Virus record (IMG/VR): IMGVR_UViG_3300003877_000001
Span: 1 to 64,000 of that record
Direction: 5' to 3' (one strand)
Length of the DNA: 64,000 nt
From: a virus
The notes beneath the pieces are model-generated. The model saw nothing but the letters and a program-made list of their open reading frames with translations, did no database searches and was not told the origin of the DNA. The translations under genes were made by a program, and so were the position numbers. This document shows positions 2,186 to 28,144 of this stretch, one piece after another; the first letter of the stretch is position 1; every line of letters begins with the position of its first letter.

Positions 2186-2230
2186 ATAATAAAAATAAAG
2201 AAAACCAGAATATTTTAGATTAAACAAAAA

Positions 2231-2260
2231 AAAACCCATAGGAATGTCCTATGGGTTTTT
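2231..2260 (-). terminator. Rho-independent terminator
   Basis: Inverted repeat AACCCATAGGA/TCCTATGGGTT with a 3-nt loop, followed on the minus strand by a run of about nine T. It closes the RNA block; the plus-strand side also has a short T run. Confidence 0.8.
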
Positions 2261-2360: not shown

Positions 2361-2371
2361 TATTTTATATG

Positions 2372-2458
2372 TTGCGAGTGCTGGACTCGAACCAGCGTAA
2401 ACCCAAAAGGGACTCCGTGCTTATGAGACAGGCGAGATACCAACTTCTCCAACTCGCT
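2372..2458 (-). tRNA. tRNA with long variable arm, apparent anticodon CAU
   Basis: On the minus strand: acceptor AGCGAGT/ACTCGCA (six pairs, A1-A72 unpaired), D arm GAGA-AGTTGGTA-TCTC, anticodon arm CCTGT-CTCATAA-GCACG with one C-C mismatch, an extended variable region containing CCC-TTTT-GGG, and a canonical T arm GCTGG-TTCGAGT-CCAGC. No CCA is encoded. The T and D arms make it a secure tRNA. A CAU anticodon (Met, or Ile if lysidine-modified) on a class II body with a long variable arm is odd, so the amino-acid identity is uncertain. Confidence 0.75.
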
Positions 2459-2463: not shown

Positions 2464-3413
2464 TAAATATTTTTAGTAGGTTACGTTTCAGGGACTAAAG
2501 GGAATATTTTCACCCAATAGTTTGAAAGAGGTTTTTACCTACTATAATTTCTTTTTAAATAAAACTCTGAGACTACAAGTTTAACAATAGGTCTTGAGAG
2601 CATTATCTTATTCTCTCATTGTCCAATGCAGTTGCCCACATTATCCTATCATCGCAAGTTAATTACGTTAACCAATCGTATCGTTACATTTTCTACTGCT
2701 GTTTCATATCTATCTCACCCGTTTCAGAGCAAACTAACTAGATCGACTAGAATAAACATCCACAACAAATATTCGGATTGGCTACCGACTTACCCCACCT
2801 CAATGGCGAGTTATGCGACTTTCTAATGCAACGCCTAAACACTTGTGCTTTTATATTGATATAAAATCTGTTTTGATCTAAATTCAAAAGATTATAAAAT
2901 TTACAGCTAATTCGGAGTTTTGAAGTCGTGGTTTAGGATGCAGTTGCCCGTCTTTTGAACGATCAATGCTGCACGACTCCATGCGTATACCAATCCGCAA
3001 TTAATAACCTTCCTGACTTATTTCCCCACCCGAAGATGGTTGTGTTCGCCTTACGGTTTAAGTTACCAACTGGTTGCTTGCCCTTCATCCTTGGTAGGAA
3101 TTATGAACATCAACCCTACATTTACATTTATTGTATTTTCATACTCAACTATGCAGTCCTTTCTGCATAATCTATGTCTTCATCTGGTTAGACCGTTAGG
3201 CACTCCCCAAAAGAAGGAAGATGTATTGTAGTGCTTATTTGAGGTCGCAAGCGACCCGATAGAGTGGACAATTAGCATTTCCACCTAACCCTTATCCCGA
3301 TTTCTCGGTTTATCTTTTCAATACCCGAAGGTAATGAACTTACTATCCGAAGACAGCAGGGAGCATAAGCACCCCCAAAAGTTTTCAATATATTAAAGAA
3401 CGTTTTCTTAATA
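2464..3413 (-). ncRNA. Large structured non-coding RNA (candidate GOLLD/ROOL-like)
   Basis: About 950 nt with no credible reading frame but very dense stable hairpins on the minus strand: three UUCG-capped stems (3026-3039, 3323-3332, 3343-3356), a CUUG-capped stem (3243-3256), ATGCAG/CTGCAT (3151-3168), GAGAG/CTCTC (2596-2617), and a domain near the 3' end closed by a perfect 8-bp stem TAGTAGGT/ACCTACTA (2474-2544). The 12-mer GGGCAACTGCAT occurs twice (2626-2637, 2938-2949). Base composition is less AT-rich than neighbouring genes. It is preceded by a host-type promoter and followed by a tRNA and terminators. Large ornate RNAs of the GOLLD and ROOL classes are known beside tRNAs in phages; membership here is inference from size, context and structure, not from a consensus match. 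Confidence 0.65.
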
Positions 3414-3414
3414 A

Positions 3415-3484
3415 GTGGAGTTGATAGGTCTTACACCTATACCTGCACCTCACAGGTGCTATACTAATTTATACTACATCCCCA
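3415..3484 (-). ncRNA. tRNA-like cloverleaf at the 5' end of the RNA block
   Basis: GGGGATG/CAACTCC pair as an acceptor stem (one wobble, one mismatch), followed by a weak D arm, a perfect ACCTG/CAGGT hairpin and ATAGG-TGTAAGA-CCTAT in the T-arm position. The T loop lacks TTC, the D loop lacks GG and the variable region is essentially absent, so it is not a standard tRNA. It could be a degenerate tRNA (a GTG triplet lies in the anticodon hairpin) or a structural element of the large RNA that follows 2 nt later. Confidence 0.35.
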
Positions 3485-3516
3485 TAATTTATTACCTTTA
3501 CTTCTTAAAGGTGTTG

Positions 3517-3547
3517 CAAATGTAAAATACTTAAATTTAATATGCAA
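3517..3547 (-). promoter_or_regulatory. Bacteroidota-type promoter for the RNA block
   Basis: On the minus strand TTG (3547-3545), a 20-bp spacer and TACATTTG (3524-3517) match the TTG/TAnnTTTG form used by the primary sigma factor of Bacteroidota. Transcription would begin about 25 nt before the tRNA-like element. Confidence 0.65.
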
Positions 3548-3599
3548 GTATTTTGTAAAATATTTTAAAACTTTTATTTTTTGTTTTTGTGTGATAATA

Positions 3600-3653: not shown

Positions 3654-5276
3654 TTAATTATTTTTCATAACATTTTGACTTTCACGTTGTTGTCTTAATA
3701 TTTCAGTTAAATCTGTTTTAGATTTATCTCCAATATCTTCTCCTTCGTGAAGATTTTTCAATATTTCTTTACCATTTTCAATAGCAATAGGTTTAATGTG
3801 TTCAATATTTTCATTACTATTATTTATTTCATCTGCTTCATTTTCACTACGTGCTTTATATCTTTCACTTATTTCTTGATTTAAATTATCTATTTTTTCT
3901 TCAGTAATTGTAGGTAAATTAATTCTAGTAGGATCATTAACTGGATCAGTCAATGCTATTTCCATAGTATCATTATTAAATATACAATCTTTAAATACAT
4001 GTCCATCACTTGCCATTCTTGCTTTTAGAATAGCAATATTAGCTTGTCCTATTAATTTTTGTTCTTGAGTTTTTGCAACAGACATCAAAAAATGTGTTTT
4101 TTGTGCACGTTTTATATTACCACCCATTTGACCTGTATCTACTAATTCAGAACCAAATCCACTTCTATTAGTTTGAAGTGCAGTCCAACATGGAATATCT
4201 AATTCATGTGCCATACCTTCAAATGATTTAACTATTTGAAGTTCACCAGCATTTTGATCTAAACCTCTTGTATGTGGTTCTAGGACATCCAAATAATCTA
4301 ATATTATAATATCAAACGATAACCCAAATTTCTTTTTATATCTATTAACATATTGTCTAACTTTAGGCATTGTGGTATCTTCCTGCGAAAATTTCTTTAT
4401 TATTAATTTACCAAATATATTTTCTTTGTGCCAATCAATAATTTTATCATTTACCTTAACTAGATTATCATCCATTTCAGATAGTGGGATTTTAGACCAT
4501 TTAGCAAAATGTTTTCTCCTAATATCATCTTCTTTATCTTCAAAAATAATTTGTAAAACATTTAACCCTAAATTATATGCAGTATTTGCAATATATGTTA
4601 ATATTGTTGATTTACCAACACCTGATGGTGCTAATATAATTCCAATCTCACCACCACCGAGACCACCATTAGTTAACGTATCAATACCTTTAATACCTGT
4701 TGGTATTGGTTTACGAAATTCTTTAGTAAGTGCTCGACTAATATTATCCATAATTTCGATACCCATATCATCTTCATCACCAATCTCACCGATTTTCTTT
4801 AAGTCATTTTCAACATTAAATAAAAATTCATCACTATTATTACCTTGTTTAACTTCACCTTGAATATAGGATGCTATTTTTCTATATTCTTGTTGTTTAA
4901 TAAAATTTAATGTTTCCTTTTGAATTGTATCACCATCATGTTGAAGTTCTTTATTTAAAACTCTTTCGTTCCAATTATTTAATTGGATTGCAACTGCATC
5001 CAATAAATCAATTTCAATAGGGTCATTTTTTTTACTGAATTTTCTAATTGCATGTAAAATACTTTTATTTTGTAAATTAGGTGGTTTACCATTTAATTCA
5101 AAATATTGTTGTATTATAGAAAAAAATCTTTTAAATGTAGCATCATCAAAATACGATATTTCTAATAATGGAATTGATTTTTCTGCAAATTCTGGTTCAC
5201 TTACTAATTGCCATAAAATTTTTAATTGAAATTCAGCACCTAAATATTGTGAAATAGTATATTCATCTCCCATCAT
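3654..5276 (-). CDS. dnaB: Replicative DNA helicase, DnaB/T4 gp41 family
   Basis: 540 residues. The RecA-like motor domain carries Walker A LAPSGVGKST (about 215-224), a Walker B strand IIILDYLD (323-330) and the sensor segment TALQTNRSG (about 365-373), in the order found in DnaB-type hexameric helicases; the N-terminal 180 residues are the expected helical linker and collar. It would unwind the phage replication fork 5' to 3'. The C-terminal 70 residues are acidic and low complexity. First gene read from a replication cluster whose other members follow upstream (RNase H-like, UvsX, gp32-like). Tandem ATG codons mark the start; either is possible. Confidence 0.9.
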   Translation of the reverse strand: MMGDEYTISQYLGAEFQLKILWQLVSEPEFAEKSIPLLEISYFDDATFKRFFSIIQQYFELNGKPPNLQNKSILHAIRKFSKKNDPIEIDLLDAVAIQLNNWNERVLNKELQHDGDTIQKETLNFIKQQEYRKIASYIQGEVKQGNNSDEFLFNVENDLKKIGEIGDEDDMGIEIMDNISRALTKEFRKPIPTGIKGIDTLTNGGLGGGEIGIILAPSGVGKSTILTYIANTAYNLGLNVLQIIFEDKEDDIRRKHFAKWSKIPLSEMDDNLVKVNDKIIDWHKENIFGKLIIKKFSQEDTTMPKVRQYVNRYKKKFGLSFDIIILDYLDVLEPHTRGLDQNAGELQIVKSFEGMAHELDIPCWTALQTNRSGFGSELVDTGQMGGNIKRAQKTHFLMSVAKTQEQKLIGQANIAILKARMASDGHVFKDCIFNNDTMEIALTDPVNDPTRINLPTITEEKIDNLNQEISERYKARSENEADEINNSNENIEHIKPIAIENGKEILKNLHEGEDIGDKSKTDLTEILRQQRESQNVMKNN

Positions 5277-15264: not shown

Positions 15265-15909
15265 CTAAGGTTTTAACATTAAAACTACTAGGTATCTTTT
15301 TAATTCTTCGAAAAAAGGAAAAATTTTATATTGTTTTTGATAGATAGAACCATCTATATCGTGTTTTGTTGTAATACTTCTATCAATAAGAATAGATGTT
15401 AATTTATCTAGATTAAAATTAAAATATTCATACATTTTTAAATCAATACCAAATATATTATTATTATTATCTAATATGTAAATCATTTCATCCTTATATT
15501 GAAATGTATTAAATTTTTCATTAGGTAGTATATTTTTAAAATTTTCTAAATTAGATATTTTATCAAATATGGGATCAATATTTTTATATGTATATTTACC
15601 TCTAAAATAATAATACGGTGCATTTCTAACAAACATTTCTATTCCACCTACATGTTGTGCTTTATTTTCATTGAAAGAAAATTCCCAATATAATTGATTT
15701 GATTTGATTTCTTTATTTAGAATTGATATTTTATCATGGAAATCATTGAGTGTTACTTTAAACTGATTCCACCCTACAAACAATATTGGTATATCTGTTG
15801 GTATATTTAAATCATTACCACCATTTTTCATATCAATATAATTAATATAATCAACCTTAGTATGATTAACTAATTCATCTTCATATATAATATTACCTAT
15901 TTTGAACAT
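15265..15909 (-). CDS. Unknown protein at the end of the glycan operon
   Basis: 214 residues, rich in Asn, Ile, Lys, Phe and Tyr; no motif recognised. It follows the PfkB-type kinase with a 1-bp overlap and so shares the glycan transcript. Segments ILFVGWNQFKVTL and YWEFSFNENKAQHVGG suggest a mixed alpha/beta soluble protein. A role in sugar handling is suggested only by location. Confidence 0.5.
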   Translation of the reverse strand: MFKIGNIIYEDELVNHTKVDYINYIDMKNGGNDLNIPTDIPILFVGWNQFKVTLNDFHDKISILNKEIKSNQLYWEFSFNENKAQHVGGIEMFVRNAPYYYFRGKYTYKNIDPIFDKISNLENFKNILPNEKFNTFQYKDEMIYILDNNNNIFGIDLKMYEYFNFNLDKLTSILIDRSITTKHDIDGSIYQKQYKIFPFFEELKRYLVVLMLKP

Positions 15910-16688
15910 TAAATTTTATCATTATCTACAACAACAACCCCCTTTTGTGTAACAACATATGATGCACATCTGTTTGCAAAATTAATTGCAGATGCAATAT
16001 CGTTATTTTCTAGATAATCCGCAACAAAACTAGCTAAAAATGTATCACCAGCTCCTGATAAATCTCGAACTTCTGATTTGTTTTTAATTGGGTGTATTAT
16101 AGTTGTTCCTAATGTCTTATCATAATGTTTAGCACCCTCTTTTCCTAGTGTTGTTATAAGATGATTTTTAAACCCATATAACTCATCTTCATTTTCCAAA
16201 TATTCTTTTTCATTAATTTTAATGAAATTAATATCATTTGCCCAACTACCTATTTTTTTCTTAGTATCTAGAAATGTTGGTATTTTATGTCCCTTACAAT
16301 ATGTAACTATTTTAAATATAATTTCTTCATCTAAAAACCCTTTATTATAGTCAGAGATAACAACACCATCCCAATGCGTTAGTTTTAATTTACCCCAAAA
16401 ACTTTTTAATGGTTTAACTTTATCTTCAGTATCTATACGTAAAAGCATTTGATTTGATACTTCATCAACATATCTTACTTTTGTAGGTTTATCTGAATCG
16501 TTTGTAATAATATCAACATGAACATTCAATGCTAATAAATTATTTAATACATTTTCAGCCATACCTACATTACTTTCCGTATTTGTTGGTTCAAATATTG
16601 GTACTGGTGCTTCAGGACTTATTCTATTACATTTTCCATATTGGAATACATCCAAACAACTATCTCCTATTACTAATACTTTTTTCAT
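15909..16688 (-). CDS. PfkB-family sugar kinase, HldE/RfaE kinase-like
   Basis: 259 residues. Starts with VLVIGDSCLDVF, then ISPEAPVPIFEP (the SPEAPVP segment typical of heptose-7-phosphate kinases), a GGAANVA-equivalent SNVGMAENVL, and the PfkB signature LSGAGDTFLASFVADYL with catalytic Asp. HldE phosphorylates D-glycero-D-manno-heptose 7-phosphate at C1 in nucleotide-heptose synthesis. It is shorter than the bacterial kinase domain (about 320), lacking some lid strands, so the substrate may differ. Overlaps wecB by four bases. Confidence 0.75.
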   Translation of the reverse strand: MKKVLVIGDSCLDVFQYGKCNRISPEAPVPIFEPTNTESNVGMAENVLNNLLALNVHVDIITNDSDKPTKVRYVDEVSNQMLLRIDTEDKVKPLKSFWGKLKLTHWDGVVISDYNKGFLDEEIIFKIVTYCKGHKIPTFLDTKKKIGSWANDINFIKINEKEYLENEDELYGFKNHLITTLGKEGAKHYDKTLGTTIIHPIKNKSEVRDLSGAGDTFLASFVADYLENNDIASAINFANRCASYVVTQKGVVVVDNDKI

Positions 16689-17701
16689 AATTCTTTTAGT
16701 ATTTTTACTATCTTTTCTGAAGCATGTCCATCACCAAATGGTGATTCATATTTAATAATTGAATTGTTTATATATTTTTCAAATATATCTGGTAATTCTA
16801 ATGGTGATTTAACCATTCTTGTAGAATATCCTATTGCTTCGGGTCTTTCCGTTACTTTTCTGCAAGTTAAACAAATTTTATTTAAAAAGCTACATTCTTC
16901 TTGTATCCCACCTGAATCAGTTATAACTAATCTTGAATTTACTAAAACATCTAATAGTTCATCATGATCTAATGGTTCAATTATTTTAATGTTTGGTGCA
17001 TCAATGAATACTTTATTTATTTGAACTTTTGGGTTTGGATGCATTGGAAATATAAAATTAAGATAATTATGTTTTTTTGCTATTTCATTTATTAATAAAA
17101 ACCACTCTTTCATCCAATGATGATTTTCTCTTCTATGGAGTGTAATTAAAATATCGTTGCTACCTGTAAATGTTTTTAATTTTTCTTTCCAAGGTAATAG
17201 ATTATCTAATCCTGTATTTCCCACAACATATATATCACCTTCTGTTTTTTCTCTTTCTAAGTACGTTTTAGATAAATCTGTTGGACATAAATGTATATCA
17301 GCAATTGATGACACTATACGTCTATTTGTTTCTTCTGGATATGGGTTTTTCTTATCAAATGTTCTTAATCCAGCTTCAAGATGAATTACTTTTATTTGAT
17401 GATGAAATGCAGACAATGCAACGGCTAATACTGATGTCGTATCGCCTTGTACTAAAACATATTTTAATGTTGGTTCTAATCTAATTATAGATGTTAATTC
17501 ATTCATTATTGAACTAACTATTGAATCTAAACGATTTTCACCATCTTTAATTGATATTACATAATCTGATTTAAAATCAGCAATATTTAAATGTTGACCA
17601 GTAAATAGTATTTTATAATCAATATTATTTTTTATAAACTCTTTAATTAAAGGTTTAATTTTCAAATATTCTGGTCTTGTTCCAAATGTTAATAGTATCA
17701 T
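16685..17701 (-). CDS. wecB: UDP-N-acetylglucosamine 2-epimerase
   Basis: 338 residues of the non-hydrolysing 2-epimerase family (GT-B-like fold): FGTRPEYLK at the start, FTGQH (about 33-37), VQGDTTS (about 94-100), HLEAGLRTFD, PEETNRRIVSSIAD, HRREN (about 187-191), and TDSGGIQEE with TERPEAI near the end. These contribute the UDP-GlcNAc site and catalytic His/Asp/Glu. The product UDP-ManNAc feeds surface polysaccharide assembly. Slightly short for the family (about 370). ATGA overlaps on both sides place it firmly in the operon. Confidence 0.88.
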   Translation of the reverse strand: MILLTFGTRPEYLKIKPLIKEFIKNNIDYKILFTGQHLNIADFKSDYVISIKDGENRLDSIVSSIMNELTSIIRLEPTLKYVLVQGDTTSVLAVALSAFHHQIKVIHLEAGLRTFDKKNPYPEETNRRIVSSIADIHLCPTDLSKTYLEREKTEGDIYVVGNTGLDNLLPWKEKLKTFTGSNDILITLHRRENHHWMKEWFLLINEIAKKHNYLNFIFPMHPNPKVQINKVFIDAPNIKIIEPLDHDELLDVLVNSRLVITDSGGIQEECSFLNKICLTCRKVTERPEAIGYSTRMVKSPLELPDIFEKYINNSIIKYESPFGDGHASEKIVKILKEL

Positions 17702-18399
17702 AAGTTTTCAATTATTTTTTTTACATATTGAATATCATCATCATTTAATTGTTTATTGGTATATAATGATTTATACCATGTTTCCGTTATCATACCACCC
17801 CTTCTAAGTATATGCCCAAAATCTAAAACATGTTTTTTATCAGTACCTAATATGATAGCACCATCATTTTTTGCAACATCTCTTAATTCCCATTCCCAAG
17901 GAGAAATTCCTAATTCAAAATATTTCATAAAATATGATGTTCTCCATACACCATAATGTAACGATAATCTATATTCCCCATTATTAGGTAATTTAATAAA
18001 ATTATAATCATTCCCATTTTTATAAATATCATTACCATATACACTTGGTGCAGCAGATGTTAAACAGATTTTTACTACTTTGTCATCATTATCCATTAAT
18101 TTTTTAAATTCATTTATCATTTCAATATTTAATTCATCAACTGCAACAATATCATCATTACCATATATAAAATATTCATCTTTAAAATCTTTAAAAAAAT
18201 TATATATATCATTAGTGAAATTATCTGCACCATTATCATTACCCAAACAAAAAAACTTCCAATTACCCATATCAAATTCAGGTTTTTTATATCCTAAAAT
18301 AGTAATGTCTAAATTTGAACCGCCAAATTTATCCATTGTATATTTATTAGCTTCTAATATATTACGATATTTATCACATGTAGGTATTATTATTTTCAT
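17698..18399 (-). CDS. Glycosyltransferase-like protein (GT-A type)
   Basis: 233 residues. The N-terminus IIIPTCDKYRN and the metal-site-like YFIYGNDDIVAVD (about 76-88) suggest a GT-A sugar transferase, and the later GISPWEWELRDVAKNDGAII is the acceptor-side acidic segment seen in short GT families. No closer family recognised. Overlaps its neighbours by four and one bases. Confidence 0.6.
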   Translation of the reverse strand: MKIIIPTCDKYRNILEANKYTMDKFGGSNLDITILGYKKPEFDMGNWKFFCLGNDNGADNFTNDIYNFFKDFKDEYFIYGNDDIVAVDELNIEMINEFKKLMDNDDKVVKICLTSAAPSVYGNDIYKNGNDYNFIKLPNNGEYRLSLHYGVWRTSYFMKYFELGISPWEWELRDVAKNDGAIILGTDKKHVLDFGHILRRGGMITETWYKSLYTNKQLNDDDIQYVKKIIENL

Positions 18400-19391
18400 T
18401 ATCTATTCGATTTAATACCCTGTAATTCATCCATCCAATGATCAACCATTTCATGCATCATTATCTCAAATGAATATTCTGGTTTCCAACCTAAAACATT
18501 TCTTGCTTTTGTTGAATCACCCTTTAGATATGGTAACTCTTCTGGTCTAATAAATTTAGGGTTTTGTACTACATAATCTTTATAATTCATATCTAAATAA
18601 CTAAAAACAACATCACACATTTCACGAACTGAATGTGTTTCCATTGTTGATATAACAAAATCGTCTGCAATATCATGATTAATTACTTTATGCATTGCAC
18701 GAACATAATCTTTTGAATGCCCCCAATCTCTATAAGAATCAATATTCCCTAATTCTAGTTTATCTGCCTTTCCTAATTTAATCATACATGCAATTTTAAC
18801 TACTTTATTTGTAACAAAATTACTTCCTCTTCTTGGTGATTCATGATTAAATAATATTCCGTTGGTTGCGTGTAAATTATAAGCACGTCTATAATGACGA
18901 ACCATATTATATGAGAATACTTTAGCACAACCATAAGGAGATACTGGATTCATTAATGTAGTTTCTCTTTGAAACTTATCATTCTCAACAGTTAAACCAA
19001 ACATTTCAGATGAACTTGCTTGATAAAATTTAGCATCAGGGCAAAGTCTTTTATACGCTTCTAATATATTAACAACACCCAACGCATTTGTTTGTACTGT
19101 AAATTGTGGTATATCAAAACTAATTCTAACGTGTGACTGAGCACCTAAATTATATATTTCATCGGGCATTATTTCGGTTAATAGACGTTCTATTGATGTT
19201 TGATCTAATAAATCACCATAATGTACGTACATATTTTTATTACTTCTTAAACCTTCAATCCTATATTGTTGGTTTTCAGCAACAGAGTTTCTTCTAATCA
19301 TTCCATGTACTTCATATCCTAGTGATAATAAATATTCACTAAGATAACTACCATCTTGACCACTAATTCCTGTTATAAACGCTTTTTTCAT
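18399..19391 (-). CDS. gmd: GDP-mannose 4,6-dehydratase
   Basis: 330 residues, full length for the family. Rossmann motif ITGISGQDGSYLSEYLL (7-23), HYGDLLDQTS, YNLGAQSHVR, catalytic Ser/Glu region ASSSEMFG and Y-x3-K as YGCAK (about 151-155), the Gmd-specific NHESPRRGSNFVT, and YRDWGHSKDYV. Converts GDP-D-mannose to GDP-4-keto-6-deoxymannose, the entry point to GDP-fucose, GDP-rhamnose and GDP-perosamine. An aminotransferase-like gene lies directly upstream; no GDP-fucose synthase is visible in the window. Confidence 0.93.
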   Translation of the reverse strand: MKKAFITGISGQDGSYLSEYLLSLGYEVHGMIRRNSVAENQQYRIEGLRSNKNMYVHYGDLLDQTSIERLLTEIMPDEIYNLGAQSHVRISFDIPQFTVQTNALGVVNILEAYKRLCPDAKFYQASSSEMFGLTVENDKFQRETTLMNPVSPYGCAKVFSYNMVRHYRRAYNLHATNGILFNHESPRRGSNFVTNKVVKIACMIKLGKADKLELGNIDSYRDWGHSKDYVRAMHKVINHDIADDFVISTMETHSVREMCDVVFSYLDMNYKDYVVQNPKFIRPEELPYLKGDSTKARNVLGWKPEYSFEIMMHEMVDHWMDELQGIKSNR

Positions 19392-19408
19392 ATTTTATAT
19401 TTATTTTA

Positions 19409-20140
19409 CTATATTCTTATATTTTTTATCATTTCTTCAATATCTGGATACATCGTACTATTTCCACTATCTTCATTTTCTTCAGGTACACTATCCATTA
19501 ATATTATTCCTCTTGCTGCATCTTCAGGTGTCATATACATATGATATCCCTTTGTTTTTATATGATTACAATCATTATATGATACTGTCAGATCTCTACC
19601 ATCATAACTCATTAATTTTAACATCTTTGCTGCTTCCTTATCATCAGTTAAAATAATACCACCCTTACCAATTGGTATTCTTTTCTTTATTTGAAAAGAT
19701 ACAACCTGTAATGCATTATTTCCAACATACATGTCTTTAGTCCAACGTACTGCACCATCATATACTCTAGTAGGATTTAATCGATAAATTCCACTCCATT
19801 CATAATCTTTAAACTCATAATCTAATCCTACTTGATTAATTAACATAGGTAATGAAACATATGTTCTATTAGGTATGGTTATTTTAGGATGAATATTCCA
19901 TTCAACCATTATTTCACCAATATTCATTAGATATTTTAATGATAAAAACATACCATTTGTACAACAATCAGTTAAAATACCATATTTTGCACCTGCAAAT
20001 TCAGCAACTTTTTGTTCAAACATGTCAATCACTTCTCTTGGGTCGTTCCAATAATAACCCATTTCTTTTATTATGTCAAGTTCTGGACGTTGTAAATGTT
20101 TGGGTATTTGACCTAAAGGATAACTATCATATTTTTCCAT
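19409..20140 (-). CDS. Short DegT/DnrJ-type sugar aminotransferase-like protein
   Basis: 243 residues. AEFAGAKYGILTDCCTNGMF matches the cofactor-binding start of DegT aminotransferases, and VVSFQIKKRIPIGKGGIIL keeps the catalytic Lys in the expected S-F-x3-K...G-x-GG spacing (Glu of the usual GEGG is Lys). The C-terminal small domain of this family (usual length about 370) is missing. A paralogue with the same truncation forms the C-terminal half of 23788-24840. With Gmd next to it, GDP-4-keto-6-deoxymannose amination is a possible reaction; inference only. Confidence 0.7.
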   Translation of the reverse strand: MEKYDSYPLGQIPKHLQRPELDIIKEMGYYWNDPREVIDMFEQKVAEFAGAKYGILTDCCTNGMFLSLKYLMNIGEIMVEWNIHPKITIPNRTYVSLPMLINQVGLDYEFKDYEWSGIYRLNPTRVYDGAVRWTKDMYVGNNALQVVSFQIKKRIPIGKGGIILTDDKEAAKMLKLMSYDGRDLTVSYNDCNHIKTKGYHMYMTPEDAARGIILMDSVPEENEDSGNSTMYPDIEEMIKNIRI

Positions 20141-20990
20141 TCTTTATATTTTTTATTTCATTTTTTAATATCCAATCATTCATTTTAATATGTCTCATTT
20201 TAGGATAAACTACAATACCATTACATAATAGTGCAGATGCATAACTAAAAGAACTTATAGATAATACTAATAATTTAGCATTTATCATTCTAATAAACAT
20301 TTCATTTGAACTAATTTCATCATCATATATTATTTTATATTTATTATATGGTTTTGGATTAAAATTCAATCTTTGTGTGGTTATTATTATGTTTTCATTT
20401 CCATTTTTTGTTAATGTATCTAATATATTTAAATAATAATCATCGTTTAATATTCTATTTTGATATTTTACAATGTCTGATCTTCTAATATGTATGATTA
20501 TTTCGTTTGACATTTCATGTTTAAATTGAAATAATGAAAATATCTTACTTCTATATTTTTTCATTATTTCAATACTTAAATCTTTTCTATCTAAATGTTT
20601 ATGTAATGTTGATATTAAATATATTTTATTTTTATGTTCATTATTTTTTATTTCTCTAACTACTTGGGTCATATCACCTTTAACAATAGTAAAATCATTT
20701 AAAATTATATTATTAACATCAACACCCACATAATTTAATGTTTTATCCCATTCATTAGCACTCTTAATATACCCTTCTCTATTCCATGTACTATAATTTT
20801 TTGATCTTGTTTTTTCACCAGCAAGAAAATTAACACCAAACCCTTCATATGATAGTGGAACATTTAAGTATTCAATATCTTTAGAATATTCTTCATTTAA
20901 ATAATATGCAAACGCACAAACATTGAAAATTCTTTGAACTCTAGCACCCATTCCATCTTGTGCTATATTACATGCAATATATGTTTTCAT
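20127..20990 (-). CDS. Fucosyltransferase-like protein (GT11-type motif)
   Basis: 287 residues. EIIIHIRRSDIVKYQ (about 163-177) is the H-x-RR-x-D GDP-binding motif of alpha-1,2/alpha-1,6 fucosyltransferases, followed by the DDYYLN segment and, near the end, SISSFSYASALL, equivalent to the conserved SSFS...AALL donor loop. The N-terminus (CNIAQDGMGARVQRIFNVCA) matches the GGLGNQ-like opening of the family loosely. Its likely donor, a GDP-deoxyhexose, fits the Gmd gene in the same operon. Confidence 0.7.
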   Translation of the reverse strand: MKTYIACNIAQDGMGARVQRIFNVCAFAYYLNEEYSKDIEYLNVPLSYEGFGVNFLAGEKTRSKNYSTWNREGYIKSANEWDKTLNYVGVDVNNIILNDFTIVKGDMTQVVREIKNNEHKNKIYLISTLHKHLDRKDLSIEIMKKYRSKIFSLFQFKHEMSNEIIIHIRRSDIVKYQNRILNDDYYLNILDTLTKNGNENIIITTQRLNFNPKPYNKYKIIYDDEISSNEMFIRMINAKLLVLSISSFSYASALLCNGIVVYPKMRHIKMNDWILKNEIKNIKNGKI

Positions 20991-21691
20991 ATTAATATGT
21001 TTACATTTCTTTCTAAAGCAATTGTATTATACATTTGAATATCTTCTCTATACATATTCATTATTTTCATTTTAATATTAAAATTTGTTTTAATATAATT
21101 TGAAATTAATTTTTTCTTTTCCTCATTACCAACATTATCGTTTGGGAAATCTAAATCATTTTTAATCTTATATTTCTCTTTAAATTCTTTATATTCCCAT
21201 GATAAATTCTTCTCTAACATTATTTCGTCAATATCATTAATATTTAAACCTCTATCTTCTATAAATTTAATTTGTGGATATGTAACAGCATCATAATAAT
21301 TATTATCACTAATAGCATTCAAAAAATATTTAAAACTTTCAATAACATCATCTTGATTCTTATAAAAACAAGATTTTTTTGTTTCTTCTATTGGATGTTG
21401 ATTTGGATATCCATTATCTTCAAGTCTTAATAAATAAAGATACATTGAAATTACTCTATCAATTGGATTTCTTAATATACAAACAGTAACTAATCCTTTA
21501 TCTTTAACATCAATATATTTAAAATATCTACCACGCATATTTAATGCATTTCTAAATGAAATTGATGCGTTTTTATATATATGAATAAATGCAAACCTTT
21601 CTTCTGGGTCTACAAAACAACCATCAATTTTATAATTATATTTATTATATGGTTTATGTATACACATATCCCAATTTTTTCGCATTTTCAA
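20987..21691 (-). CDS. Carbohydrate sulfotransferase-like protein
   Basis: 234 residues. FAFIHIYKNASISFRNAL (about 33-50) is the 5'-phosphosulfate loop of sulfotransferases (pattern hIpKnAgtS) and VCILRNPIDRVISMYLYL (about 69-86) is the 3'-phosphate loop, both binding PAPS. Would transfer sulfate to a sugar. The frame opens at 21691 but overlaps the previous gene by 38 bp; ATG at 21667 (MCIHKPYN) gives a 14-bp overlap and may be the true start. Confidence 0.75.
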   Translation of the reverse strand: MKMRKNWDMCIHKPYNKYNYKIDGCFVDPEERFAFIHIYKNASISFRNALNMRGRYFKYIDVKDKGLVTVCILRNPIDRVISMYLYLLRLEDNGYPNQHPIEETKKSCFYKNQDDVIESFKYFLNAISDNNYYDAVTYPQIKFIEDRGLNINDIDEIMLEKNLSWEYKEFKEKYKIKNDLDFPNDNVGNEEKKKLISNYIKTNFNIKMKIMNMYREDIQMYNTIALERNVNILI

Positions 21692-22202
21692 TTATTTTAT
21701 TACCATCAATCTTTTTTATCAACTTTGCAGGATTACCCTTATATATACCCCATTCTTCAGTATCACCATATATTAAACTTCCTGCTGTAACTAAAACACC
21801 TTTTCTTAGTATTGTACCCGGTAATATAATTGCATTTGAACCAACATTTGAAAATTCTTTCATTATGATTGGTTTTATTATTTGACTACCAACCAGTTCT
21901 TTAGGTATTAAAGCACCAAATAAACCAGAATCATCAAACCTATCTGAACCACATACAATTCTAGCACCAGCCATAATATTATTAAATCCTTTTAATGTTA
22001 ACATTCCATCAATACCGCCAATAGATGTCACATGTGGTGCAATATGGATATAATCACCTGTTTTCATTCCAGTTGTACAATAAAAACCATAATCAATTGC
22101 AATATGATTACCCAGTTCAATTAATTCTGGTCTTTTAAATTCAACATTTGAATGTATAAATATATCTTTACCTTGTTTAATTTTCATATTTGTTACATTC
22201 AA
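21654..22202 (-). CDS. Left-handed beta-helix acetyltransferase (sugar O-acetyltransferase-like)
   Basis: 182 residues with hexapeptide-repeat character throughout (IAIDYGFYCT, IHIAPHVTSI, IMAGARIVCG, SNVGSNAIILPGTILRKGVLVTAGSLI) and the closing YKGNPAKLIKKI found in WbbJ/maltose-O-acetyltransferase relatives. A His (IAPHV) sits where the catalytic His is expected. Transfers acetyl from acetyl-CoA to a sugar or nucleotide sugar. Confidence 0.8.
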   Translation of the reverse strand: MNVTNMKIKQGKDIFIHSNVEFKRPELIELGNHIAIDYGFYCTTGMKTGDYIHIAPHVTSIGGIDGMLTLKGFNNIMAGARIVCGSDRFDDSGLFGALIPKELVGSQIIKPIIMKEFSNVGSNAIILPGTILRKGVLVTAGSLIYGDTEEWGIYKGNPAKLIKKIDGNKIIENAKKLGYVYT

Positions 22203-22734
22203 TATTTAAACTTATTAGTTGTCCATTTTTTTTATTCATATGTGGTAAATACGATTGTGAATGATCATCAAATTGTGAATGGTCTGTATTTCTCCAATCA
22301 TATTTCTTAACATTTTTAAAATTAATACCATTTAATATATTTTTTAATGAATCAAAATCATATATTGTTTTATGATAAATTATATTATTACCCATTTTCA
22401 TTTTGCCGAAAATAGGACCTAAAAAATTTTCTATTTGATAATTTTTATTATTATATAGGTTAGATATTGATTCAATATCAGGTGTTGCAATTCTTAACAC
22501 ACCGTTTGGTTTTAATACTCTATACCATTCTTTAAATACATCAATAATTTCATCTCTATCAAAATATCCAATCACATGTGATGCATAAATTATATCAGCA
22601 AAATTATTATTAAAGGGTAATAATGAGACATTACAATTATAATCTAAATGATTATAATCACCATTATCAACATGAATCCAATCTTTACCAAAATTTCTCC
22701 AACCACAACCTAAATGTAATTTAATTTCTTCCAT
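22177..22734 (-). CDS. SAM-dependent class I methyltransferase
   Basis: 185 residues. Motif I LHLGCGWRNFGKDWIHVDNG (about 6-25), an acidic second strand, ADIIYASHVIGYF and WYRVLKPNGVLRIATPD match the class I fold. Small size and operon context point to sugar or lipid-linked glycan methylation. Overlaps the acetyltransferase by 26 bp. Confidence 0.8.
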   Translation of the reverse strand: MEEIKLHLGCGWRNFGKDWIHVDNGDYNHLDYNCNVSLLPFNNNFADIIYASHVIGYFDRDEIIDVFKEWYRVLKPNGVLRIATPDIESISNLYNNKNYQIENFLGPIFGKMKMGNNIIYHKTIYDFDSLKNILNGINFKNVKKYDWRNTDHSQFDDHSQSYLPHMNKKNGQLISLNIECNKYEN

Positions 22735-23153
22735 TATATAAACCTTTTATCTAATTCTTGACCCTCATAAGGACCTGTCTTATATTCATATACTATGGTA
22801 TTATCTTCCAATATTTCATATGTATGACCACCATACAATGTAAATGAAGCATCCCCAACTTTAAGTGTTGGTGTTGCAATAACATTATCATTAATATCAT
22901 AAAAAGTACATTTAACACTACCATTAATAATCACCCAAGATTCTTGTGCAATTTGATTTTCATATGTTCTTTTCTTCTTAATATGTTTATGTGGTTTAAA
23001 TTTCTTACCTTTTTTCATTTTTAGTGAAGAACACTGAATAAAATTATCTTCAGGTACTAATTCAACTCTAGTTTCTTGTTTTTTTATATCATCTAATCTT
23101 CTTATAATATGAAGAAGTAATTTTGGATCTACTTTTGAATATATTTTTTCCAT
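22734..23153 (-). CDS. Cupin-fold protein
   Basis: 139 residues. KKFKPHKHIKKKRTYEN ... ESWVIINGSVKCTFYD ... VGDASFTLYGGHTYEIL follow the two cupin motifs (metal-binding His/Glu in the first, His in the second). In glycan loci such proteins are often sugar isomerases or epimerases, or bind the product; the substrate is unknown. One-base overlaps on both sides. Confidence 0.7.
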   Translation of the reverse strand: MEKIYSKVDPKLLLHIIRRLDDIKKQETRVELVPEDNFIQCSSLKMKKGKKFKPHKHIKKKRTYENQIAQESWVIINGSVKCTFYDINDNVIATPTLKVGDASFTLYGGHTYEILEDNTIVYEYKTGPYEGQELDKRFI

Positions 23154-23791
23154 TATATTTTTTTATTTTTAAATGTCATTTCTTTATGCATTGTTATACC
23201 ATCATTTAAATCGATTAATACATCAAAATATTTTTTTAAATAATCAATTAATTTTGATAATTTTTCTTTTAATTGAATATGAATTTCTACTGATATATAT
23301 TTAATTTTAGATAAATCCTTATTCATTAATAGATTATATTCACTCCCCTCACAATCAACCTTCAAGTAATCAATTTCTTTAGTTCCAATTATTTCATAAA
23401 TATCTTCAATAGTAATTGTTTCAACCATTTCATAGTTATTATCATCCCATCTATCATCATCATATGTAGATGCATTTCCTGAATAATTAGATGCTTTATA
23501 TGCTTTTAATTTAATTTTATCACCAGATTTATTTGAAACAGCATATTTATAAAGTTTAACATTATCAAACATTTCAATATTTTTTAAGCATTCATTATAT
23601 GTATATTCTGCTGGTTCAAAACAATATATTTTTTCAAATTTATTATGATTAACAATTGGAAACCCACCAACATTTGCACCAACATCTACTGCAACACCAA
23701 AACCATTAAATTCATCAGGCACATAATATGCCTTTTTTACACCATTTATTCTTGTTGTTAACCAATTTGTAGGGTCGTTAAATTCTATCAT
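23153..23791 (-). CDS. FkbM-family methyltransferase
   Basis: 212 residues. VAVDVGANVGGFPIVNH (about 33-49), YCFEPAEYTYNECLKN, and IDYLKVDCEGSEYNLL with SVEIH are the ordered FkbM motifs. These SAM enzymes methylate sugar hydroxyls or carboxylates. A second methyltransferase in the operon suggests a methylated, phage-specific glycan. Confidence 0.85.
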   Translation of the reverse strand: MIEFNDPTNWLTTRINGVKKAYYVPDEFNGFGVAVDVGANVGGFPIVNHNKFEKIYCFEPAEYTYNECLKNIEMFDNVKLYKYAVSNKSGDKIKLKAYKASNYSGNASTYDDDRWDDNNYEMVETITIEDIYEIIGTKEIDYLKVDCEGSEYNLLMNKDLSKIKYISVEIHIQLKEKLSKLIDYLKKYFDVLIDLNDGITMHKEMTFKNKKI

Positions 23792-24840
23792 ATTTGTTTA
23801 AATTTATTAAATACATCATTAGTTTTTAAATCTTTATATCCACCGTTTTCACCTAAATCAGCAACATTTTGTGGATAATTTTGCATTAATGCAAGACCAT
23901 GTGCTGCTTCTTGTGGTGTCATATACATATTCCAACCAAGTGTTTTTATATTATCATCTTTATAACCAATTGCTGATCTTCCTTCATATCTTGCTTTCTT
24001 AAACCATTCAACAGCTTCAGGGTTGTCGGTTAATATCATACCACCCTTACCCATTGGTAGTGTTTTTTTTATATGAAATGACAAACATATAAATTTACCT
24101 TTCATATACATATTAGATGTAAATCTTTTAGCAGCATCAATTACAGGTAAAGGTTCTAATGAATACATACCAGACCATTCATAATTTCTAAATTTTACAT
24201 CATAACCAGCATGAATTGCAGACATTGGTACTGATAAATATGTTTTATTTGGAATAATAACATATTCATTATCATAATCTTCTAGTTCTTTCATATACAT
24301 TAAAGAAAGAAATATTGCATTAGTACAACTATCAATAGCTACCGCATAAGGTGCACCAGTATATTTAGCAACTTCTTCTTCAAACATTTCAACAATTTTA
24401 AATGGATTATGTAAATTTGTTTTATATTCTACAAATTCTTTTTTATAATATTTGAATTTTGAATCTTCCATTACAAACTTAAACCCACATGAAATAAAAA
24501 GTTTATTACTAGACTCATTATCATGTTTAACTTTAGCAAAAGATGTTGGGGCTAATCTCATTAGTTCGTTAATCATTAATTTACCATATCCTTTCTTTTG
24601 GTGATCAGGATGTGTACAAACCCTAATATCATTATCAACAGAACCAACAAAACCTACTGGAATATCATTAACCAAACAAATCCAATATTCGTCATTATGC
24701 TTTTCCATATACTTTTCCTGTTGTTTTGATGTAATTTGAACATTTTCAATAAACCCATCTTGAACTTGATCATTAGATCTTAGTTTTCTAATAAATTCCC
24801 AATACCTTTTCTCGTTCTTTACTAACTTTACCATATACAA
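23788..24840 (-). CDS. GNAT acetyltransferase fused to a short DegT-type aminotransferase
   Basis: 350 residues in two parts. Residues 1-130 are a GNAT domain with the acetyl-CoA loop VCTHPDHQKKGYGKLMINEL and a typical ISCGF beta-bulge after it. Residues 135-350 are a DegT-like domain paralogous to 19409-20140, including VAIDSCTNAIFLSL and CLSFHIKKTLPMGKGGMIL with the catalytic Lys. Joining an aminotransferase to an N-acetyltransferase would make an N-acetylated amino sugar in one protein. Both paralogues lack the C-terminal small domain. Confidence 0.75.
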   Translation of the reverse strand: MYMVKLVKNEKRYWEFIRKLRSNDQVQDGFIENVQITSKQQEKYMEKHNDEYWICLVNDIPVGFVGSVDNDIRVCTHPDHQKKGYGKLMINELMRLAPTSFAKVKHDNESSNKLFISCGFKFVMEDSKFKYYKKEFVEYKTNLHNPFKIVEMFEEEVAKYTGAPYAVAIDSCTNAIFLSLMYMKELEDYDNEYVIIPNKTYLSVPMSAIHAGYDVKFRNYEWSGMYSLEPLPVIDAAKRFTSNMYMKGKFICLSFHIKKTLPMGKGGMILTDNPEAVEWFKKARYEGRSAIGYKDDNIKTLGWNMYMTPQEAAHGLALMQNYPQNVADLGENGGYKDLKTNDVFNKFKQI

Positions 24841-25589
24841 ATTTTTCTATTTCCTCCTTTTAAATACCCCCTTATACCTTTCATACCTAAATAATCATTC
24901 ATTGTAGTACCAACATCTATATATGTATTATTTGGGTATTTCTTATATAAATGATGTATTAAAAAATTACTTAGTGATGATGCCGAAAATAAAAATACAT
25001 GATTTTCAATTAAATTTTCACTAATCCAATTGTCCATATGTTCAATTAATTCATAATCATTAATAATACAATTTTTACCAACTCTAAAATCTTTTTCAAC
25101 CTTAAATGGTAGTCCATCAATATGTCCAATTTCATTTAGAACGTAAACAATTTTCTTATTTGAAAATTCTGGAATCATATATTCTTTAAATAATGGGAAA
25201 TTACCATTAACCCATAAATTAGACCATGTTAATAAATCACTATTTGGATTACCATCATACCAATCAACCATTTCATCAAAATCTGCTTGACCAACACAAC
25301 AACGACAAGATAATCCCACATAATAGTTATTTTGAAGATGTTGATAAGCATCCATTAATTCTTGTCTATAAAATTGGTGTTTATTTGGATCAAAATGTTT
25401 ATAATCCTCTGGATGATAAAATCCTGCTGTTTTTTTATTACCTATTTTAAAATAATCATTAGCAAGAATAAGTTCTTTATTTTGCATTATACGTAATTCA
25501 CCATCTGAAAATCTACTAAAGGCAAAATTTTCACCCCTTTTAAATTTATCAAATAACATAAAAAAATGTTCTTTAAATATTTTACTCAT
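24828..25589 (-). CDS. GT-D-type glycosyltransferase-like protein
   Basis: 253 residues. AFSRFSDGELRIM (about 22-34) resembles the RFGDGE segment of GT-D glycosyltransferases (DUF1792 relatives), where D-x-E binds the metal/nucleotide. The C-terminus has FLFSASSLSNFLIHHLYKKY and a YIDVGTTMNDYLG strand-turn also seen in that family (VLIALGPTA.. DIGH..), though similarity is loose. Next to other glycosyltransferases in the same operon. Confidence 0.6.
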   Translation of the reverse strand: MSKIFKEHFFMLFDKFKRGENFAFSRFSDGELRIMQNKELILANDYFKIGNKKTAGFYHPEDYKHFDPNKHQFYRQELMDAYQHLQNNYYVGLSCRCCVGQADFDEMVDWYDGNPNSDLLTWSNLWVNGNFPLFKEYMIPEFSNKKIVYVLNEIGHIDGLPFKVEKDFRVGKNCIINDYELIEHMDNWISENLIENHVFLFSASSLSNFLIHHLYKKYPNNTYIDVGTTMNDYLGMKGIRGYLKGGNRKICIW

Positions 25590-26323
25590 TTTATTTTATG
25601 TACAGTATTCCAACCTTTATCAATACATTTAGAACAAACCAAATCTCTTAATCCATAATGATCTGCATTTATCTTAAATGATGCAACATTATCATTTCCT
25701 AACCCACCATCTCTTTCTGGGAGATTACCCCACATTTCTCTATCACTTTCAGGATGTGGTGGTACAAATGTATTTATTCCACCATATTTTTGTGCTAAAT
25801 ATGAAAACATAATATCTTCACCATTATCCCATGATACTGGTTTTTCATACCACATATATTTTGCCCATTCTTGTTTAAAAAACCACCCATGACCAACTAA
25901 ATCAACTCTCATTGTCCCATCACTATGTGTTCCTGTCCACCCAGCCTTAGAGTGTGGTCTATACGCTTTACTATTAATTATAACACCACTAGACCCTAAT
26001 ATACCATTATGTTTTTTCATCGTAGTTAAACAATTTTCAAACCATTTATTACCCGGAATAGTATCATCATCAAACATTGCAATATAGGGTGTTCTTATTA
26101 ATAATGGAATTGTAAATCTTCCATGGAATTTACTATTCCAATTAGTCACATATGTTTTTACGTTTTTATTTATTGGTAAATTTTGTCGAATATCTGATTT
26201 ATTAAACCAAACATGAATATTTTCTGGTTTAATTTTAACTGTTTGATTTAAAACAGCCTCAATTTGTTTATCTAAACTATGTGGTCTTTTATATACGTTT
26301 AATATAACTGATATTTCTTCCAT
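25586..26323 (-). CDS. Glycosyltransferase, GT-A fold
   Basis: 245 residues. ISVILNVYKRPHSL at the N-terminus and YIAMFDDDTIPGNKW (about 90-104) with a D-x-D metal site match family-2-like transferases; WDNGEDIMFSYLAQKYG (about 185-201) supplies the catalytic acidic residue. Overlaps the downstream gene by four bases. Confidence 0.75.
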   Translation of the reverse strand: MEEISVILNVYKRPHSLDKQIEAVLNQTVKIKPENIHVWFNKSDIRQNLPINKNVKTYVTNWNSKFHGRFTIPLLIRTPYIAMFDDDTIPGNKWFENCLTTMKKHNGILGSSGVIINSKAYRPHSKAGWTGTHSDGTMRVDLVGHGWFFKQEWAKYMWYEKPVSWDNGEDIMFSYLAQKYGGINTFVPPHPESDREMWGNLPERDGGLGNDNVASFKINADHYGLRDLVCSKCIDKGWNTVHKIK

Positions 26324-26325
26324 AT

Positions 26326-27312
26326 TTATTTGTTTTTATCATCAATAAATCTCCATGTATGTATTGGTTGTTTATCTCTTTGTAATTTATTCATTTTAGA
26401 ATCTTCATTTCCATTATGTTTAACTAATGAGAATTCGGTTTTATGTACTAATAATTTCATTTGATGAATTTTTTGACTTACTTGTCTCCAAACACCTGAA
26501 CTTAATTCTTTATCATTTTTCCATCTACTTTCTGATATTTCATCAATATTAAATTTTATTTTTTCTATAAATTTATAATCAAAAAGAGTTCCACCATCAA
26601 CCCAATGTTTAAAACCCCATGCTAATTGATTTGAATTATGTGTAATATGATATGAAATTCCAACATATCTATTATTTATTTCTTTCAATTCAAAAAATTT
26701 ATCTAGTAAAATATCTAAATAATTTTCACATAAAATATAATCATCATCAATTTGTAATATTGCATGGGATTTATTTTCTGAACTAACTTTAAATAATTCA
26801 TTAATTGTTTTCCAATATCTATATTTCCCACCATTTTTAACATTTTCAATATATTCTAATTTAGGAAAATAATCTTTTATTGTTTTATATTTATAATACG
26901 TTGAACCGTCATTCAATAATACTATTTTAAATTTATATTTACTGTCTTGTGTATATAATTGACTAATTAATCTTTTAACTTTGGCATATCTATTAAATGA
27001 TGATATTAAAATTACAACATCATATTTTATATTTAATTCTTTTAAATAATCAACATCAAAAATATCATCATAAACACCTCTTCTAATAAGCCCTCTTTGC
27101 TCATGTTTAGTTAATCCTTTTTTTATTTCTATTCTTTCTTTTCCTTTTGTTTGAGAAGCATCAATTTTTATATAACTCTGTTTTGGTTTTGGTGTACTAA
27201 TTAATTTTGGTTGTTTTTTTGATATTAATTTATTATTAATACGACTTTCTCTATTATTATTAATAACAATCCTTTTTTTTATAATATTTTTTATTGTTCT
27301 ATTTTTAGCCAT
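26326..27312 (-). CDS. Family 2-like glycosyltransferase with basic N-terminal extension
   Basis: 328 residues. After a Lys/Arg/Asn-rich, probably disordered stretch of about 90 residues comes a GT-A domain: VVILISSFNRYAKVKRLI, KIVLLNDGSTYYKYK, NGGKYRYWKTINELF, and AILQIDDDYILC with the D-x-D site. The basic extension may bind membrane, nucleic acid or another virion protein; its role is unknown. Confidence 0.75.
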   Translation of the reverse strand: MAKNRTIKNIIKKRIVINNNRESRINNKLISKKQPKLISTPKPKQSYIKIDASQTKGKERIEIKKGLTKHEQRGLIRRGVYDDIFDVDYLKELNIKYDVVILISSFNRYAKVKRLISQLYTQDSKYKFKIVLLNDGSTYYKYKTIKDYFPKLEYIENVKNGGKYRYWKTINELFKVSSENKSHAILQIDDDYILCENYLDILLDKFFELKEINNRYVGISYHITHNSNQLAWGFKHWVDGGTLFDYKFIEKIKFNIDEISESRWKNDKELSSGVWRQVSQKIHQMKLLVHKTEFSLVKHNGNEDSKMNKLQRDKQPIHTWRFIDDKNK

Positions 27313-27329
27313 TTCTTTTATATTTTTTT

Positions 27330-27338
27330 TATAAATAC
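27330..27338 (-). promoter_or_regulatory. GTATTTATA motif inside the glycan operon
   Basis: 18 bp before the start at 27312 and overlapping the end of the upstream gene; it would let the lower part of the island be transcribed with the late genes. Confidence 0.4.
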
Positions 27339-27985
27339 TACCATGACCCTAATTTATGTTTATTAATTATTTTTAGTAAATTTTCTCTTTCATTATTAGT
27401 GTTTGATGTTATTCCTTCATCTAGATAATATGCAAAGAATTCAATATCTTGTACTGCAATACCCTCTATTCCTTGTTTCAATAATGTCAACCAAATATCC
27501 CAATCTTGTAATCTTTTTAATGATTCATCAAACATAGGAAAAATATCACTTCTTATTAATGACATTGTTGATATATAATTTTCTCTTTTTAATACTCTAC
27601 CATCAAATGGTCTTGTTGATATTCTAAAATTCGTTTTTATTGGGTGATTAATTTTATCTTGTACTATACCAAAATATCCTCCATATGCATATCCTTTATC
27701 TGGATTTTTTTCTAAAACATCAATTGCTTTTTCTAAAAAACTAGATGGAAATATAATATCATTATCACTAAATAAAACATATTTTTGTGTAGATTTTTTA
27801 AATCCGTCATTACGTTTTTTAGGTGCACCACCATCATCAGTATTTATAATAATTTCATTTGGTAGCATTCCTTCTATTGATGGGTAACAAAAATCTTTAA
27901 AGAATTTGTCTCTTATTGGTGTTACTTTATGTGGTATTATTACTGATACTGGATATCCATCATCATATTTTTCTATGTTTATCAT
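27338..27985 (-). CDS. Family 2 glycosyltransferase
   Basis: About 215 residues from ATG 27985 (MINIEKYDDG); a TTG at 27997 is the only earlier start and is less likely. YPVSVIIPHKVTPIR, IIINTDDGGAPKKRNDGFK, KYVLFSDNDIIFPSSFLEKA (D-x-D site) and RLQDWDIWLTLLKQGI give the standard order of GT2 motifs. The start overlaps the stop of a degraded endonuclease fragment (ATGA). Confidence 0.8.
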   Translation of the reverse strand: MINIEKYDDGYPVSVIIPHKVTPIRDKFFKDFCYPSIEGMLPNEIIINTDDGGAPKKRNDGFKKSTQKYVLFSDNDIIFPSSFLEKAIDVLEKNPDKGYAYGGYFGIVQDKINHPIKTNFRISTRPFDGRVLKRENYISTMSLIRSDIFPMFDESLKRLQDWDIWLTLLKQGIEGIAVQDIEFFAYYLDEGITSNTNNERENLLKIINKHKLGSW

Positions 27986-28143
27986 ATATGTGTCCAACTT
28001 ATATTTCTAATTATTCTTGATATGGTTAATAGTGATACTTTATATTTTTTACCAATACTCATATCTATTTATTTATATTTTTTTGAACTTCCAATATAAC
28101 AATTTCCACTAATTTTATTTAATATATATTGAATAATTCTACT
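27982..28143 (-). pseudogene. Degraded homing endonuclease (GIY-YIG start and HTH tail only)
   Basis: Two fragments in series on the minus strand. The first (about 28143-28069) reads NKISGNCYIGSSKKYK then stop, the YIG half of a GIY-YIG domain. The second (28062-27982, 26 codons) reads MSIGKKYKVSLLTISRIIRN then ISWTHI, the helix-turn-helix tail found at the C-terminus of homing endonucleases. The middle of the gene has been lost. Confidence 0.6.
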
Positions 28144-28144
28144 T

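Follow-up and report, generated by a model that had tools for sequence, protein, structure and literature searches.

The locus considered here raises two questions: what is the product of a long stretch without an evident protein, and how might a phage make it? The stretch lies on the minus strand of a window comprising bases 1-64,000 of the 325,854-base-pair (bp) virus record IMGVR_UViG_3300003877_000001. It is located between a gene for a DnaB-type helicase (3654-5276; Pfam DnaB_C) and a gene of 354 amino acids (aa) at 1021-2085, for which a Pfam match was not found. The product is a phage-encoded, full-length GOLLD RNA of about 840 nucleotides (nt), which consists of a 5' cap domain and the conserved 3' domain. 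GOLLD is among the largest structured RNAs known. Comparison with other loci further suggests that this RNA is transcribed from a leader resembling that of host ribosomal RNA (rRNA) operons. An earlier note on this DNA had proposed for 2464-3550 a large, highly structured non-coding RNA, either of the GOLLD or ROOL kind or of a new class, and had recommended a search with Rfam models and a test for covariation among homologues.

Identification of the RNA

The Rfam model RF02032 (GOLLD), which covers only the conserved 3' half of GOLLD, matches the minus strand at 2564-2981 with an E-value of 1.6e-46 and a score of 171.8 bits (gathering score 150 bits). The match is end to end, from model position 1 to 416. 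GOLLD is the single large-RNA match in the whole 64-kilobase (kb) window. In the scan of 4227 families only transfer RNA (tRNA) was otherwise above cut-off in the window, and no match to ROOL, OLE, HEARO, group I or II introns, or rRNA was found. The suggested kinship with GOLLD or ROOL is settled in favor of GOLLD. The two domains are as follows.

2564..2981, minus strand: GOLLD conserved 3' domain (RF02032 positions 1-416, 171.8 bits)
2982..3390, minus strand: GOLLD 5' domain, the cap domain in the cryo-electron microscopy (cryo-EM) structure of a relative (covariation; covariance model of 3139-3318)

The RNA body occupies approximately 2564-3406, and 2464-2563 is a trailer; the RNA of the earlier note is present, but its limits are narrower than proposed.

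To find homologues, relatives of the neighboring helicase were identified first, and the records that carry them were then searched for GOLLD. Two diverged full-length homologues, L030 (83% identical) and L032 (74% identical), lie beside the same helicase gene, and an identical copy of the window GOLLD is present in another IMG/VR record. The alignment of the window with L030 and L032 was used for the analysis of covariation. In the consensus structure of the three, 97.4% of cells are paired, and 63 of the 240 pairs are changed on both sides, compared with 24 ± 4 after shuffling and 5-10 when the partners were slid by 1-3 columns. The window RNA alone folds 3.1 standard deviations below its shuffles, and its GC content is 39% (27% for the window). 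These results confirm the structured non-coding RNA on the minus strand.

A coding function can be ruled out, in agreement with the claim that there is no credible reading frame. The open reading frames (ORFs) are at most 71 aa long, those tested (51-71 aa) have no Pfam match, and the homologues differ by frame-breaking insertions and deletions of 1, 2, 5, 11 nt and other lengths.

The 5' half is GOLLD as well, as a covariance search shows. A model built from 3139-3318 and the counterparts in L030 and L032 matches the collinear region of 15 further GOLLD loci with E<1e-3 (best E 3.5e-9). The 5' domain of the window, some 400 nt long and less conserved than the 3' domain, has its homologues in the 5' domains of these GOLLDs. 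The window copy adds one member to a known family, in a low-scoring and divergent group (171.8 bits, compared with up to 325 in other phage loci).

Conserved structural elements and distribution

Several elements of the fold can be located in the window.

3292..3313, minus strand: conserved 5'-domain hairpin AUAAAC-stem-GAAA-stem-GGAUAA (motif in other loci, compensated stem)
2931..2937, minus strand: 5' strand CCUAAAC of a long-range 7-bp helix (covaries with 2834-2840)
2834..2840, minus strand: 3' strand GUUUAGG of the same helix (covaries with 2931-2937)
2738..2750, minus strand: hairpin CUAG-UCGAU-CUAG, putative L21a (Rfam alignment position)

The 5'-domain hairpin, in the general form AUAAxC-stem-GNRA-stem-G..UAA with compensated stems, was found in 25 of 31 loci and also in L135 and L136; it occurs once in the window. 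The long-range helix is absent from the Rfam consensus structure. Among 41 non-redundant 3' domains it covaries nearly everywhere, for example as CCACAAC/GUUGUGG, CCGAAG/CUUCGG and GGUAAGC/GCUUACC. The loop at Rfam positions 237-241 is U-CG-AU in the window (central CG at 2744-2745) and GC-AU in L030 and L032. A symmetric kissing loop of GOLLD, L21a, which forms bridge B8 between the half-shells, is reported to switch between GC and CG (PMC12286853). By its position the loop at 2738-2750 appears to be L21a, which in the GOLLD env-38 lies at nt 656-657 (approximately position 236 when counted within the 3' region). The kissing contact between the half-cages is probably kept, since the same GC/CG switch occurs at the loop aligned to L21a. 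The earlier note had correctly listed at least three UUCG loops and one CUUG loop; C(UUCG)G is found at 3352, 3330 and 3035, and CUUG at 3252. Its repeated 12-mer GGGCAACTGCAT does occur in two copies, but both L030 and L032 lack it, so that a functional repeat was rejected and the repetition is probably due to chance. Pairing over 9 bp of the conserved loop UUCAAAAGA (2952-2960) with the linker (2875-2883) was also discarded; the complement exists only in the window and L030, whereas 11 other loci with the loop lack it.

The distribution of GOLLD was surveyed in IMG/VR with one DNA pattern from the 3' end, by which 82 stretches were found. GOLLD is widespread in phages: it was present in 71 of the 81 IMG/VR records searched, in 67 of them above cut-off and with up to 325 bits, on phage contigs of up to 465 kb. 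The window does place GOLLD in a phage with a Bacteroidota-type promoter, as the earlier note had anticipated, but with 71 other IMG/VR records carrying it the extension of the class is only partly news. GOLLD is in fact common in phages with promoters of this type, because TTG-N18-22-TAnnTTTG precedes it at 22 of 31 non-redundant loci; no paper was found saying so. Among the other candidates, the GTDB pattern matches L116-L127 were not GOLLD, a GOLLD-like match in a Flavobacteriales metagenome-assembled genome (MAG) lay on a different contig and scored 142.6 bits, below cut-off, and a DNA match in Klebsiella phage KP13-16 was a chance match within a coding gene. The phage ICP1 was searched for ROOL only, and none was found.

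Transcription unit and leader

The elements flanking GOLLD form a single unit in the order promoter, tRNA-like leader, boxA, GOLLD, tRNA-Met and terminator.

3517..3547, minus strand: Bacteroidota-type promoter TTG-N20-TACATTTG (pattern; same spacing at L030 and L032)
3416..3483, minus strand: tRNA-like cloverleaf, a degenerate tRNA (Rfam tRNA 33.7 bits, cut-off 29)
3382..3406, minus strand: boxA-like element in the conserved block AAAACGTTCTTTAATATATTGAAAA (core GTTCTTTAA at 3393-3401)
2474..2544, minus strand: trailer hairpin with 8 perfect closing pairs, between GOLLD and tRNA-Met (unrecognised by Rfam)
2371..2458, minus strand: tRNA-Met (CAU) with a long variable arm (42.5 bits; downstream of GOLLD)
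2230..2260, minus strand: intrinsic terminator closing the unit (sequence)

The promoter, the 5' cloverleaf, the tRNA at the 3' end and the terminator after it were all correctly recognized in the earlier note. The perfect 8-bp stem around 71 nt exists too, but it belongs to the spacer between GOLLD and tRNA-Met and not to the ornate RNA. The promoter pattern occurs 8 times in the window, with 2.8 expected, and taken alone is weak evidence; it also precedes the GOLLD of L030 and L032, as TTG-N20-TAnnTTTG. Transcription is predicted to start near 3510. Judging from the promoter type, the phage probably has a Bacteroidota host.

It is important to consider the conserved block in the leader. In the three homologues 24 of its 25 positions are invariant; the window, L030 and L032 all begin with AAAACGTTCTTTAA.ATATTGAAAA, with one variable position, just after their promoters. 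The block contains GTTCTTT(G/A)A, which has the form of boxA, the site of rRNA antitermination. The element is in the transcript leader, 115 nt after the -7 box and ahead of the first GOLLD stem. Its recurrence was examined in non-redundant GOLLD loci with enough upstream sequence, in the interval from -1050 to -700 relative to the 3' end; 32 loci were tested, and L119 was dropped as a false pattern match, leaving 31. The strict form GTTCTTT[GA]A is present in 24 of the 31, whereas its frequency in the remainder of these loci predicts 0.37, and 300 shuffles gave a maximum of 2. With the near variants GTTCTTTAT and GTTCTTTTA the number rises to 26. All 22 promoter-bearing loci have boxA or a near variant 5-115 nt downstream of the promoter, compared with four of the remaining nine. 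The chance that the five boxA-free loci would all fall among the nine promoter-free ones is about 7e-4 (calculated by hand). A 635-kb phage record (L136) shows the order of the window: promoter, tRNA (a good one), boxA and GOLLD.

The same plan is found in the rRNA operons of the presumed host phylum. A boxA of the type GTTCTTTGA stands before 16S, 49-216 nt upstream, in 12 of 16 Bacteroidota genomes with a leader of at least 150 nt, and GTTCATTGA is present in the rRNA leader of two further Bacteroidota genomes. The window core GTTCTTTAA agrees with this rRNA boxA. The Flavobacteriales MAG has the TACCTTTG promoter, a hairpin, TTGTTCTTTGAA and 16S in the same order. At L130, from a Paludibacteraceae MAG, the 16S match is poor for a bacterial contig (595 bits, 1710 nt), and its 5' end is unlike that of Bacteroidota 16S; the sequence may be of organellar or eukaryotic origin and misbinned. 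Another GTTCTTTGA occurs near 105555-105562 (minus strand) of the virus record, directly behind tRNA-Pro in a minus-strand tRNA cluster; it is either a second boxA or a chance occurrence.

In the 5' cloverleaf the anticodon loop is shortened and the T loop, UGUAAGA, is poor. ARAGORN made no call for 3416-3483, and 17 of 200 shuffles folded at least as well. L030 and L032 lack this cloverleaf and have a short hairpin leader instead. It is best read, from its sequence features, as a degenerate tRNA or a processing mark. The tRNA-Met follows GOLLD after 106 nt in the window and after 15-16 nt in L067 and L080. The record contains 49 tRNA matches, most of them at 105-157 kb. The tRNA locus of the earlier note is real insofar as the tRNA-like element and tRNA-Met flank the RNA, but it is outside this main tRNA island. 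On its own account, the region C1:104500-158500 of the record (L151-L153) holds a near-complete tRNA set over 50 kb with odd anticodons (for example Asp ATC and Leu AAG), and ARAGORN reports a tRNA-Pyl(CTA) at C1:157717-157787, a possible amber-suppressor tRNA.

Proposed mechanism and alternative explanations

These arrangements allow us to propose that the GOLLD unit is transcribed in the manner of rRNA by way of boxA, is trimmed in the manner of tRNA and assembles into a cage. The probability of this whole explanation is estimated at roughly 0.72. The leader would copy the plan of host rRNA operons. As boxA leaves the polymerase, it would recruit NusB and S10 (NusE), and the antiterminated polymerase could make the long untranslated RNA fast, escape Rho and let the RNA fold during transcription. 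Long untranslated RNAs are targets of Rho. The tRNA-like element and tRNA-Met may be cut by tRNA-processing enzymes, by which both sides of the RNA would be trimmed. The finished RNA would then assemble with its own copies into a hollow cage, as the studied relative does. The leading published idea on the cage is the encapsulation of something late in infection. In E. coli, formation of the rRNA antitermination complex requires boxA, which recruits NusB-S10, and boxA is also sufficient for it (PMC10250234). The relative env-38 is a 14-mer by cryo-EM, and formation of the multimer is established in vitro (PMC12286853).

Several observations weigh against this explanation. A single boxA is not rare, GTTCTTTRA occurring three times in the window with 2.5 expected, so that the case rests on recurrence at one place. 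The element is absent from five of the 31 GOLLD loci, namely L034, L073, L099 and L109, which are directly behind a tRNA, and L050. It is also absent from three Streptococcus-prophage GOLLDs (L134, L156, L157), two of which adjoin terminase genes, and from the upstream sequence read for the ROOL of L. salivarius pMP118. The Weeksellaceae rRNA leaders have a diverged form, AGATCATTGA, in the same place, and the assignment to a Bacteroidota host depends on the promoter type. Antitermination is consequently not a general need of GOLLD, and the Streptococcus and L. salivarius controls rule out that every GOLLD, or ROOL, is equipped with boxA. The putative boxA goes with the stand-alone form of GOLLD that has a Bacteroidota promoter. 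That other cage-RNA loci do without it favors a function in transcription over one in the fold.

The conserved block might nevertheless be a structural part of the GOLLD particle, pairing for example with the loop UUCAAAAGA or the 3' end. It is next to the first stem, and its distance from the 3' end varies little. In addition, UCUUUGAA is an almost complete complement of the conserved loop, and RNAalifold predicts a weak pairing between UUUAA of the block and the 3' tail. The helix so proposed shows no covariation, however, the GOLLDs downstream of a tRNA or in Streptococcus prophages lack the block and are still GOLLD by Rfam, and the identical sequence occurs in host rRNA leaders; this structural explanation is considered unlikely. 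More doubtful is a decoy, in which many copies of the RNA, or the 14 copies in a cage, sequester NusB-S10 of the host and so restrain its rRNA synthesis at a late stage of infection. The recurrence of boxA at the 5' end, at some loci only 5-7 nt after the promoter, would leave it in the RNA unless trimmed, and binding of GOLLD to ribosomes in pull-downs, as cited in PMC12286853, is in keeping with such a role. A role in cis is simpler and matches the rRNA operons, boxA-free relatives still keep GOLLD, and the tRNA-like element upstream in the window is of no help to a decoy. Similarly speculative is the idea that in Bacteroidota phages each subunit of a GOLLD cage contributes one boxA (14 per particle), displayed or enclosed, by which the cages capture NusB-S10; boxA would then be a working part of the particle in addition to a transcription signal. 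If this were true, the rRNA-making machinery of the host would be turned off or over to the phage.

It is quite improbable that the unit is primarily a tRNA precursor with GOLLD as a passenger between the tRNA-like element (3416-3483) and tRNA-Met (2371-2458). Both flanks are in place, and tRNA-Met stands just after GOLLD in L067 and L080 too, but in L030 and L032 GOLLD keeps its place although these tRNAs are missing, three further genes for tRNA-Met(CAU) and two for tRNA-His are present in the phage, and the constant part is GOLLD. That the RNA represents a new large class, or is a ROOL, OLE, HEARO, group I or II intron or rRNA fragment, was suggested only by a general appearance: long, untranslated and rich in tetraloops. 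Next to nothing speaks for it now, as the RF02032 match refutes it, the 5' half is homologous to GOLLD 5' domains, and none of the 4227 families but tRNA was otherwise above cut-off. The new class that the earlier note had offered as its alternative is excluded by the GOLLD match over both domains.

The preferred explanation, transcription by way of boxA, has some wider meaning. That most GOLLD genes with this type of promoter start with boxA suggests that they are produced like ribosomal RNA, by a polymerase resisting Rho. With NusB and S10 it also offers defined molecules through which to approach an RNA that is reported to bind ribosomes. The GOLLD models, which now cover the 3' domain only, would be improved by the alignment of the three homologues, the long-range helix and the leader. 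In the literature searched, which comprised few subscription journals and did not extend to the first descriptions of GOLLD and ROOL, no relevant paper has GOLLD together with boxA and none has ROOL with boxA and antitermination; a prior mention is possible. The boxA leader appears to be a variant of the GOLLD transcription unit for which no earlier description was found.

Other features of the window

A PhoH-like ATPase ORF at 38275-40116 has its P-loop (GTGK) interrupted by an apparent intein with a homing-endonuclease core (LLGVLLGDGSL, GLMDSDGTVD). The apparent intein starts with Ala, which would be a non-canonical N-terminal residue, and ends with HN/T. Many consecutive genes at 15265-29900 resemble sugar-nucleotide, glycosyltransferase, aminotransferase and methyltransferase genes, including GDP-mannose dehydratase-like and UDP-GlcNAc epimerase-like ORFs (by eye); as a surface-glycan cassette this region is unusually large for a phage. 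Two paralogous predicted lipoproteins, at 56790-57269 and 57422-57835, have almost identical signal peptides (MKNLMSIFAVVLALGVMSCDP). The large related ORFs at 49570-51291 and 61546-63318 contain tandem KYGVxxxxQSxEIK repeats followed by a nuclease-like domain, and resemble mobile homing endonucleases.

Comparison with known systems

The use of a phage boxA to build a processive polymerase is known from the nut site and N antitermination of lambda. Unlike lambda, a single boxA is found here, as in rRNA operons, and neither an N protein nor boxB was recognised, no further search having been made. ROOL (RF03087) is likewise a large phage or plasmid RNA near tRNAs and forms an RNA cage, but the window has no RF03087 match. 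With GOLLD (RF02032; env-38, PMC12286853) the agreement extends to the whole 3' domain model, a separate and less conserved 5' domain, the linker in the 3' domain, the L21a-like GC/CG loop switch, and the location in a phage genome next to tRNA-Met. Unlike this known GOLLD, the window copy has its own Bacteroidota-type promoter with a boxA leader and a degenerate 5' tRNA, and its tRNA-Met comes after, not before, the RNA. The unit is similar to the leader of a Bacteroidota rRNA operon (for example L131), with a TAnnTTTG promoter, a short leader containing a hairpin or tRNA-like element, GTTCTTT(G/A)A, a long structured untranslated RNA and a tRNA in the unit. However, it is encoded by a phage, and its product is GOLLD and not rRNA.
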